From assembly GCA_026995985.1 (NCBI GenBank), contig JALWNF010000066.1, positions 1 to 5,938 of the forward strand: a stretch of 5,938 bases of DNA, read 5' to 3'. The notes under the pieces were generated by a model. It saw nothing but the letters and a program-made list of their open reading frames with translations. It was not told the DNA's origin and ran no database searches. Below are positions 3,473 through 5,938 of the stretch, piece by piece (the first letter of the stretch is position 1; every line of letters begins with the position of its first letter). The stretch comes from Campylobacteraceae bacterium (lineage in GTDB: Bacteria; Campylobacterota; Campylobacteria; Campylobacterales; Sulfurovaceae). The position numbers were made by a program, and so were the translations under genes.

Positions 3473-4645
3473 ATGCTTAATTTAAAAAAACTAACAGAGA
3501 TAAAAGAGTCTTACTTTTTGTCACAACCACATCAACCATTTTTTGTTTTAGCATTTATCAATGCTATTATCTCTATGATACTTTTTGCTCTATTTTTTTC
3601 AGGATATTTAGTTCCTATTGTCCCAGCAAAATACTATCATGCCTATAGTTTTATCTATCTATCCTTTACACCAGCTTTTTTTGCTTTTCTATTTACAACT
3701 TTTCCAAGATTTTCGGCAACAGAACCTATTACAAAAAAAGAGTATCTGCGTGTACTTATCTACTATACTGTAGGCTCACTCCTTACTATTTTAGGTACAT
3801 TTGTCTCTATTCCTCTTTTAAGTACAGGAATCTTTTTAACCTTTATTGGACATATAGTAGCTGGACATATGCTCCTTCATATCTATAAAATATCAATACA
3901 AAAAGAGAAGTTTGACCAGTTTTGGATTTTAGTAGCTATGAGTTTTGGAATAGTTTCTCACTTTACACTTCTAGTTACTCTTTGGATTCCAAAACTATAT
4001 CTTTTCTCTATTCAAACAGCTATCTATCTATATCTATTTTTATTAATATTTACAGTTGCTCAACGTATGGTTCCTTTTTTTTCAAATACACCTATAGAGA
4101 AGCATATTGAACGTTTTAAAGTAATTGTTGGACTATTGTGTCTACATATTTTACTAGAGATTACACAATATAACTCATCTTTTTTGGTAGATTTTCTTCT
4201 AGCATACCTCTTTGCTAGAGAGTTAAAAAGATGGAAACTACCTTTCCCAAATGAAAACCCTCTTCTTTGGGTTTTACATATTGCACTCTTTTGGATACCT
4301 ATTGCCTTTTTAATCTCCTCTATTACAAGTCTTTTAGGGCTTATGTACGGTAGCAACTTCCTATATCTTGGCATTCACTCATTGGCGTTGGGCTTTTTCT
4401 TAACCATACTTATTGGTTTTGTAACACGTGTTACTCTTGGTCATTCAGGCAATGTTTTGATAGCAGACAACTACACTAAATATCTCTTTTATGGAACACA
4501 GATTGTTGTCTTTTTTCGCATATTGACCTCTATAACTGACAACAATATGATATTTTTTCAACTCTCTGTTGTAGCATGGATAATACTATTTGTAGCATGG
4601 GGATATAGATTTTTTGCTGTCTTGATTTTTGGGAAGAAGTTATAA
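3473..4645 (+). CDS. NnrS-family multispanning membrane protein
   Basis: NnrS proteins are heme- and copper-containing inner-membrane proteins linked to denitrification and protection from nitric oxide; their exact activity is not settled. The 390 residues match the family length, with about 12 hydrophobic segments from residue 23 to 385. Family signs are PHQPFF near the N-terminus (H20), RMVPFFS at 198-204, IHSLALG with H302, and the C-terminal RVTLGHSG signature at 319-326 (H324). Further histidines that might bind metal are H56, H127, H132 and H136. The WHxHE-type motif usual near the second helix reads YHAYSF here, so only H56 of that cluster is kept. It stands alone between ppaC and a convergent gene. 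A CRP/FNR-like box and an extended -10 precede it, which fits regulation by oxygen or nitric oxide. The family call is good, the physiological role is inferred. Confidence 0.85.
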   Translation: MLNLKKLTEIKESYFLSQPHQPFFVLAFINAIISMILFALFFSGYLVPIVPAKYYHAYSFIYLSFTPAFFAFLFTTFPRFSATEPITKKEYLRVLIYYTVGSLLTILGTFVSIPLLSTGIFLTFIGHIVAGHMLLHIYKISIQKEKFDQFWILVAMSFGIVSHFTLLVTLWIPKLYLFSIQTAIYLYLFLLIFTVAQRMVPFFSNTPIEKHIERFKVIVGLLCLHILLEITQYNSSFLVDFLLAYLFARELKRWKLPFPNENPLLWVLHIALFWIPIAFLISSITSLLGLMYGSNFLYLGIHSLALGFFLTILIGFVTRVTLGHSGNVLIADNYTKYLFYGTQIVVFFRILTSITDNNMIFFQLSVVAWIILFVAWGYRFFAVLIFGKKL

Positions 4646-4658
4646 AATTTAATTTATT

Positions 4659-4689
4659 ATGGTTATAATGATTGAATCATCATAACCAT
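4659..4689. terminator. Bidirectional hairpin between convergent genes
   Basis: The arms 4659-4672 and 4676-4689 pair with a single A-C mismatch (4667/4681), closing on a 3-base loop. The hairpin lies 13 bases after the NnrS-like stop and directly abuts the stop codon of the minus-strand SMR remnant (4692-4690). The flanks are AT-rich but lack a long T run. Its position between convergent genes suggests that it terminates both. Confidence 0.6.
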
Positions 4690-4971
4690 TTAACTCTTTG
4701 TACTTAAATGGAGTCCTACAACACCCAAAATAATAAATCCTATACTTACTATTTTTAGTGGAGTTATCTCCTCTTTAAAATAGTAAAAACCAATTATAGT
4801 AATAAGTGCTGTTCCTACACCTGACCATATAGCATAAGCCATACTAACATCAAATCTCTTTAAAGCAAATGTTAATGTACCCAAGGAGAGAATATAAAAG
4901 AGTGCCATAGCTATAGATGGTACTATTTTGGTAAAACCTCCTGACATCTTCATAGCTGTTGTTCCTGCTAC
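4690..4971 (-). pseudogene. 5'-truncated SMR-family multidrug efflux gene
   Basis: SMR proteins (EmrE/QacC type) are four-helix inner-membrane antiporters that export cationic drugs in exchange for protons. The remaining 93 codons begin with VAGTTAMKMSGGFTK, matching the sequence directly after the essential Glu14 of EmrE. They include TM2 (PSIAMALFYILSLGTLTFAL), TM3 with the AYAIWSGVG signature typical of the Qac branch, and TM4 (IVSIGFIILGVVGLHL). TM1 and its glutamate are missing. In their place is the right end of the adjacent tnpB element. The frame stays open upstream through the element, to an ATG at 5028 and TTG codons at 5061 and 5070, giving a chimera of up to 126 residues whose first 33 are element-derived and non-SMR; a histidine replaces the glutamate. 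Without TM1 it should not transport. The frame has no other damage, so the insertion looks recent. The missing 5' part is expected beyond the right window edge. Confidence 0.85.
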
Positions 4972-5069
4972 GTGAACCTCACTCTCCCAAATCAAAGAGA
5001 GCTTCGTAGGAGAGGCTTCATTTGTCATGAATACGAGATAAAAGGAGTAACACTTAGCCAAACTAAGCA
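4952..5069 (-). ncRNA. Predicted TnpB omega/reRNA with guide into the SMR gene
   Basis: IS200/IS605 tnpB elements make a guide RNA from the tnpB 3' end and the right end of the element, with the guide taken from flanking DNA. Here the scaffold would contain a hairpin CTTAG-TTTGG-CTAAG (5067-5053) over the tnpB stop, then GAAGCC and the GC-rich stem CTCTCC/GGAGAG (5014-5009 with 4987-4982), ending GAGGTTCAC near 4972. The guide would begin at 4971 as GTAGCAGGAACAACAGCTAT, which is SMR coding sequence. Exact ends are not determined. The 5' end given is only the outermost hairpin seen and may lie deeper in tnpB. Confidence 0.5.
4982..5014 (-). repeat. Subterminal hairpin of the element's right end
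   Basis: On the minus strand CTCTCC (5014-5009) pairs with GGAGAG (4987-4982). A competing shorter hairpin pairs CTCTC (5001-4997) with the same GAGAG (4986-4982) around a 10-base loop. An outer pairing GAAGCCTC (5019-5012) with GAGGTTC (4980-4974), with one bulged C, is a third option. Such a structure is expected for TnpA recognition and for the guide-RNA scaffold. Confidence 0.55.
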
Positions 5070-5938
5070 ACCTCTCTTAACTTAATTAACGAAGACAAAG
5101 TATGACTGGTTCTGTCTACAAGATGAGGAACTTTTGCCTCAACTTGCAACCTTGACTTTTCAGACAAGGGTTTTAAAATAGCTCTTGTAAAATATCGACT
5201 CGCAATATTGTAAGATGCTGATAAATCACTATGATATATTTTTCCATTTGTAAAGGTAGCAATATCTCTCTTATAACTTCTCTTTAGAACTCCACTTCCA
5301 TCATAAGCATAGATAGAAGTTCCTCTTGCTATCACTCTTGAATATCTAATCCCAAAACTATGTGCCTTCTCTCCAACTTTTTGTTGAATCTTTAGTTTTG
5401 CCCAAAATTGTAACTTGGCTCTTAATCTCTTTGCTCCAAATGTATTGTGTGACAGTCTCATCTTTCCAAGATACTCAAATACAATAACATCTGCTCTGTT
5501 TTTGATTGCAAACTCTACAATCTTATCTACTGTATCTTGGATTATAAACTTTTGTAGATTGTTAATTCTTCTCCAATGGTTTGGTTTTTCATTAAATATT
5601 CCAGATTTTCGTTTAGCTTTAGATAGCTTATTTACTCTGTGAGATAGTTGGTCTTTTTCTTTGGGTTGATTGATAAACAATCTATCCAAGACAGTTCCAT
5701 CTATATCTATACAACTACAAACTGCACTATTTGTTAAGCCTAAATCAACACCTATAACTTTTTGTTTTTTTAGAGGAGTTGAGTTAAGTTTAACATCTGT
5801 TTCATAGGAAATATGGAGAAAATACTTTTTTCCTCTTTTAACCAACATTGGGTTAAACTCTTTAAAATTTTTAAATCTATACTTTTGTCCTGATTTTAGA
5901 GATTTGGTTGAGTACTCTATATCTATCCATACCCAATC
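5063..5938 (-). CDS. tnpB: TnpB RNA-guided nuclease (partial, N-terminus outside window)
   Basis: TnpB is the RuvC-type, RNA-guided DNA endonuclease of IS200/IS605 elements and ancestor of Cas12; it cuts sites matching its guide and so helps keep the element in place. The frame is open from the window edge (DWVWIDIEYSTKS) through an internal ATG at 5848 to a TAG at 5065-5063: 291 visible residues of an expected 350-400. Counting from the internal Met at 5848, the RuvC acids are D35 in GVDLGLTNSA, E125 in VIVFEYLGKMR, and D208 in SDLSASYNIASRYF. The region between the last two motifs (ARGTSIYAYDGSG) has no CxxC pairs, so the usual zinc ribbon is absent, as in some TnpB subfamilies. No stop or frameshift is seen, so the nuclease may be active. 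It lies on the same strand as the SMR remnant, pointing into it. Confidence 0.93.
   Translation of the reverse strand, partial: DWVWIDIEYSTKSLKSGQKYRFKNFKEFNPMLVKRGKKYFLHISYETDVKLNSTPLKKQKVIGVDLGLTNSAVCSCIDIDGTVLDRLFINQPKEKDQLSHRVNKLSKAKRKSGIFNEKPNHWRRINNLQKFIIQDTVDKIVEFAIKNRADVIVFEYLGKMRLSHNTFGAKRLRAKLQFWAKLKIQQKVGEKAHSFGIRYSRVIARGTSIYAYDGSGVLKRSYKRDIATFTNGKIYHSDLSASYNIASRYFTRAILKPLSEKSRLQVEAKVPHLVDRTSHTLSSLIKLREVA

Follow-up and report, generated by a model that had tools for sequence, protein, structure and literature searches.

Does the tnpB element in the 5,938-nucleotide window analyzed here (the whole of contig C66) occupy an SMR transporter gene at its essential glutamate through a homing-like choice of a conserved site, or does its position follow from the target preference of an ordinary insertion sequence? 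In the case of group I intron homing endonucleases, the element lies inside a conserved gene and the nuclease is able to cut the empty allele. Reading the window alone, the original prediction had likened the choice of the glutamate position to that of homing endonucleases, and had placed the element in the SMR gene with a predicted guide RNA that targets this gene. The source is a draft genome of 1,608,417 bases in 275 contigs, estimated to be 82% complete. On the minus strand, the window runs from a tnpB fragment (5938-5063) through a tail ending at 4972 into an SMR frame that begins at 4971 (Table 1). We put the probability at about 0.9 that this is an IS200/IS605-type tnpB element inserted into the SMR gene behind the Glu codon, via its TTGAA motif. 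The case is one of a known kind of element, ordinary for its type, with a cleanly resolved insertion, and the homing-like reading is not supported.

Table 1. Features at the junction of the tnpB element and the SMR gene in the window
Feature	Positions	Strand	Basis or remark
tnpB 3′ part	5063..5938	-	291 codons, ended by contig edge; NF040570 match
Hairpin-bearing right end (terminal GAGGTTCAC); putative 3′ portion of the guide RNA scaffold	4972..5062	-	18-copy alignment
Predicted 20-nt guide segment GTAGCAGGAACAACAGCTAT, the first SMR codons past the junction	4952..4971	-	Published TnpB rule
SMR C-terminal 93 codons, residue after Glu to stop	4690..4971	-	PF00893, 74.5 bits
Open frame from right end into SMR piece	4690..5070	-	TTG start 5070, ATG 5028 (counted from translation)

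The right end of the element is window base 4972 (minus strand ...GAGGTTCAC), which sets the junction at 4971/4972. When window positions 4600-5938 were used to query the source genome, all five other matches started exactly at base 4972, bearing out the junction proposed from the window. With the last 229 element bases as the query, 36 of 42 places among the matches listed for 100 genomes stopped exactly at 4972, a survey that counts the source genome and the query itself (one of the 36) and scores no more than seven candidates per genome; three of the remaining places stopped 1-2 bases short and three were without the right end. The records carrying this right end (31 stretches) are assigned to Sulfurovum or Campylobacteraceae. 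The SMR frame begins with VAGTT directly past the element end, confirming the original prediction to the base. The open frame that crosses the right end and the SMR piece is probably incidental, and a functional in-frame fusion protein of the two was set aside because the first transmembrane segment is mostly lost.

The SMR piece in the window enters the PF00893 profile at position 14 and NF042984, the model for EmrE, at position 15, and it is the one SMR match in the source genome at E ≤ 1e-15. An N-terminal fragment, which should lie beyond the left end of the element if the gene is interrupted, was looked for and found on contig C175 of the same assembly. This contig came up when the left portion of the tnpB-bearing copy on contig C104 was used to query the source genome, and it stops inside 5′ tnpB. 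On C175, GGAGG lies upstream of the SMR ATG, the frame runs ATG...TTCTTTGAA and closes with ..TTTGAA, encoding MINWLYLFGAIFFE (left flank ATGATTAATTGGCTATATCTATTTGGAGCAATATTCTTTGAA), and the element left end then starts CAAAATATAATTCG. The pieces of 42 bases (C175) and 282 bases (window) are both free of in-frame stops, which suggests that the insertion is recent. Between C175 and the window, the assembly lacks about 240 bases of tnpB; the halves, on two draft contigs, are linked by sequence logic rather than by reads, and each was compared separately.

In 99 other genomes, all 15 SMR relatives detected (E ≤ 1e-15) are contiguous at the split point, with Glu before it; these relatives, from other species and so not same-species empty alleles, read through the equivalent of 4971/4972, and two of them, L021 and L023, have in-frame stops at other positions. 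Comparison of the two halves with the 15 relatives gave zero duplicated bases at the insertion point. The interrupted gene fits the SMR family of small transporters of the drug-efflux type, with the TM1 Glu on C175 followed by a VxGTT-like motif in the window. Judged from the sequence of the two pieces, the element splits the SMR gene between the conserved Glu, equivalent to EmrE E14, and the Val that follows it. The claim that the gene is interrupted at its essential-glutamate position is thus borne out, the halves on C66 and C175 meeting the exact element ends. In EmrE, E14 is reported to be essential to drug efflux (PMC11133458), and the interrupted SMR transporter is predicted to be non-functional.

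Why the insertion lies behind this codon can be addressed from the target motif. TTGAA directly precedes 34 of 38 distinct left ends, at loci most of which had been picked by their right end. Four left ends, counted in the 38, have no TTGAA in register: L011, L098, L126, and L129; in L011 and L098 the motif is present 1-3 bases out of register. In the two SMR pieces (42 + 282 bases) there is one TTGAA, at the Phe-Glu codons, and TTCAA, its other-strand form, does not occur. In stretches of the source genome totaling 53,872 bases, TTGAA occurs 208 times with both strands counted (3.9 per kb), so about one site would be expected in a gene as long as the SMR gene. As NTT-GAA in the sense frame, the motif encodes (F/L/I/V)-Glu, with Glu last, and in one other frame it is a stop (TGA), excluded within a gene. 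The insertion most likely lies behind the Glu codon because that codon belongs to the only TTGAA of the gene, and with a single TTGAA in the SMR pieces, the "catalytic site" position needs no homing preference. Two IS200/IS605 traits are present here, a short motif in a fixed position ahead of the left end and the lack of target duplication. In the literature searched, the coverage of which was partial, we did not find TTGAA named as a TnpB motif, and novelty of the motif is not claimed; in the accessible parts of two papers, the letters TTGAA stand alongside TnpB as parts of probes or oligonucleotides, not as a named motif.

The window TnpB matches the curated model NF040570 (guided_TnpB) with 99.2 bits (E 3e-28), just under the cut-off of 100, and a second TnpB sequence scored against the same model reached 94.4 bits (E 8.5e-27; cut-off 100). 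Pfam matches of the window TnpB to RuvC_1 (22.5 bits) and OrfB_IS605 (20.3 bits) are both below cut-offs, and the full TnpB copy gave no Pfam match at E ≤ 0.001. The 449-aa copy on C104 and the window TnpB are 98% identical; C175 carries roughly the first 77 codons of a tnpB copy, and tnpB is open across both sequenced parts (window and C175). Values of dN/dS were 0.078 and 0.182 for the window TnpB against two copies and 0.161 in a third TnpB comparison, reported without a significance test and leaving out copies L111 and L118, for which no fitting open frame was found; such low values would fit a TnpB protein kept under selection. Three acidic residues of TnpB align with those of the Cas12f structure 9nzq in a weak match (E 0.0067), and we take them to be the catalytic RuvC D-E-D site. 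TnpB proteins usually carry zinc-finger cysteines, and by eye the TnpB of this element is without them.

A Y1 (HUH) transposase TnpA, another IS200/IS605 trait, is encoded between these same ends in another species of the genus: contig C112 of genome G011 (L113) carries tnpA (PF01797, 136.5 bits) together with a full tnpB. This complete element of about 1.97 kb, with divergent tnpA and tnpB, is likely the autonomous parent form. In the source genome, the copies on C104 and C175 have tnpA shrunk to a remnant (by eye), and we did not detect any TnpA at E ≤ 1e-6 in this assembly, which is 82% complete.

The right end was aligned in 18 copies, and its last 20 bases are invariant. RNAalifold predicts a hairpin of 16 pairs from these copies; the changes within its pairs are all one-sided, and a single copy has one broken pair. 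As to the description of this region as a structured tail, a conserved hairpin can be drawn in the 18 copies, but the 91 right-end bases of the window fold no better than shuffles (z = -0.02), and two-sided changes are seen in 0 of the 16 predicted pairs. The right-end hairpin is conserved, and folding energy gives no proof of it. At the left ends, a palindrome is visible by eye; IS200/IS605 elements characteristically have subterminal hairpins at either end. TnpB has been described as taking its guide from the ~16 nt that flank the right end and as cleaving beside the same motif that TnpA uses (PMC8612924). By the published flank rule, the guide here would be GTAGCAGGAACAACAG(CTAT) and its target the empty SMR allele, which supports the guide sequence predicted from 4971. 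An Rfam search for self-splicing RNA gave no match in the window, L008, L111, or L113, and one tRNA in L144; self-splicing rescue of the IStron type was rejected for lack of such a match in the stretches scanned.

From 64 right ends, three duplicates and one short flank were dropped, which left 60 distinct flanks, each 150 bases or longer; "distinct" means different first 30 bases, so near-identical flanks may count twice, and the 64 include some from palindromic units and some showing just the last right-end bases. A frame open for at least 45 codons from the junction was present in 14 of the 60 distinct right flanks and in none of the other 46, a count that misses flanks with fewer than 45 codons of gene left. 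Pfam domains above curated cut-off at the junction were SMR, Fic, and DUF505 (3/60, with 7 of the 14 open-frame flanks examined), whereas L126 (Abi_2) and L099 (DUF7351) were below cut-off. The right flank of L118 had no Pfam match at the junction, and in that of L108, a peptidase domain begins 53 codons downstream of the junction. Copies with tnpB own 17 of the right ends, with 16 distinct flanks. We did not detect this SMR flank beside any other of the 64 right ends.

Several copies differ in form from the one in the window. Twenty of the 64 right ends are those of 57-bp elements, in which the left end passes straight into the right-end hairpin; dispersed through the genus (L010, L011, L012, L080, L082, and others), they are probably non-autonomous relatives of the tnpB element. 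Palindromic units with inverted right-end sequences (e.g., AACCTCACTCTCCC...GGGAGAGTGAGGTTCAC) occur at L087, L090, L092, L132, and L133. The C104 copy (L008, G000:C104, 2907/2908) adjoins a fic gene at its HPFADGNGR part; the left flank of this copy has, by eye, no fic-like frame or fic N-terminus, so that it is not a simple two-sided insertion, and it was likely rearranged later. At positions 1-599 of L009 (G000:C205), a tnpB copy reduced to its 3′ part adjoins an integrase fragment labeled by eye as IS3-like. The right end of L126 (G028:C211, 891/892) is in frame with a 135-codon frame of weak Abi_2 likeness (16.8 bits, below cut-off). L091 and L110 have a right flank common to two species (G022 and G011) and may represent one insertion that was inherited or transferred.

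The original prediction had suggested that related SMR genes might also be targets. TTGAA is found at the site in 2 of the 15 SMR relatives, with five and three mismatches in the first 16 guide bases, and the other 13 have other letters there, e.g., TTTGAG; none of the 15 combines TTGAA with at most two mismatches in the first 16 guide bases. Related SMR genes are therefore unlikely targets, and the suggestion is not supported. Exact matches to TTGAA followed by 17 guide bases numbered 0 in 397 genomes of the phylum, as did matches to TTGAA followed by 16 guide bases in viral contigs. At up to three mismatches, 52 places were found in 47 of the 397 genomes (the window's own site included) and two with the pattern read backwards; the excess is not explained as a whole, and related genomes share identical letters at several of these places. 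We read each of the 51 places outside the window, and 2 hold an SMR gene: the one on G046:C64 keeps the motif with three mismatches to the guide, and the one on G346:C16 has the motif broken to TAGAA, with two further mismatches. A 22-base near-match, TTGCAGTTTCAGGAACAACAGC, is repeated in several genomes of one family outside SMR genes (L178, L179, L180, and others).

These data bear on three alternatives to an ordinary insertion. If the element preferred conserved catalytic sites and used RNA-guided cutting, followed by repair, to spread among SMR genes, insertion at an essential glutamate would be expected, and the C104 copy beside the HPFADGNGR stretch of fic adds a second such position. 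The survey nevertheless gives 60 distinct flanks in 64 right ends rather than one conserved site occupied across genomes, and only 2 of the 16 distinct tnpB-copy right flanks have a Pfam-supported gene at the junction (4/16 examined). The insertion is absent from the SMR genes of other species in 15 of 15 cases, guide matches are no better in those genes than described above, exact matches are lacking in both the phylum and the viral contigs, and a synonymous GAG would abolish the TTGAA motif. Homing to conserved sites, and with it the likeness to homing endonucleases first proposed, was rejected on the right-flank counts and the single TTGAA in the SMR gene, and we regard it as very improbable.

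A misjoining of the SMR end and the element at a repeat, that is, an assembly chimera, might be suspected in a draft of 275 contigs in which the window contig breaks inside repeated tnpB, yet two separate contigs bear complementary SMR halves at the exact element ends, in frame, making this explanation extremely improbable. More weight is due to a dead relic, a reading that overlaps with the preferred one, accepts the insertion as described, and denies only that TnpB and its RNA are active now. The tnpA remnants in two source-genome copies, the lack of a detectable TnpA, and the TnpB score below the curated cut-off would all agree with it; the open tnpB in both sequenced parts and the low dN/dS between TnpB copies speak against it, and we consider it unlikely, with an appreciable chance of being correct.

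Under the preferred reading, insertion of an IS200/IS605-type element through TTGAA, TnpA supplied in trans or formerly present would have placed the element just 3′ to TTGAA and duplicated no target bases. A right-end RNA that includes some 16-20 nt of SMR sequence would be made, and TnpB with this RNA would cut TTGAA+GTAGCAGG... in empty SMR alleles; repair of the cut allele from an occupied copy would keep the element. Cleavage of the empty site followed by restoration through recombination is a published general model (PMC8612924, PMC11870625). On this analysis, present RNA-guided activity of the element is probable. A further step, in which the element, with a motif that overlaps the invariant Glu codon, is a natural drive that attacks intact SMR alleles of its own population by RNA guidance, we hold to be highly doubtful.

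The element resembles those of the ISDra2/IS608 type within IS200/IS605 (PMC8612924): tnpA (here in the sister copy) and tnpB lie between ends with hairpins, putative ones in the present element, insertion takes place just 3′ to a short T-rich motif and duplicates no target bases, and the right end, TGAGGTTCA(A/C), abuts the guide-matching flank. The ISDra2 right-end oligonucleotide contains TGAGGTTCAA (PMC2806898), and the element here has the similar TGAGGTTCAC. It differs in its motif, TTGAA rather than TTGAT or TTAC, in having lost most of tnpA in the two source-genome copies seen from the left end, and in a TnpB that appears to lack the customary zinc-finger cysteines. The proposed mechanism is like the TnpB gene drive of insertion sequences, in which the guide records the site and empty copies are cut; that drive was demonstrated on plasmids (PMC11870625), whereas the present case is known from draft-genome contigs. 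In the published TnpB work, flank-guided cutting is likened to group I intron homing (PMC8612924). With the group I intron homing endonucleases and IStrons (PMC4227781), the element shares its location in a conserved gene and a nuclease potentially able to cleave the empty allele; unlike them, it has no self-splicing RNA in the stretches scanned, leaves the gene broken, and has scattered insertion sites.

Should the element be a drive after all, the host would escape just through changes such as the synonymous GAG, which breaks the motif. The locus provides a natural TnpB target that is cleanly resolved, with junctions, TTGAA, and predicted guide readable from the sequence, so that cleavage is directly testable. 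It also illustrates that a short target motif encoding (F/L/I/V)-Glu can mimic the choice of an active site.
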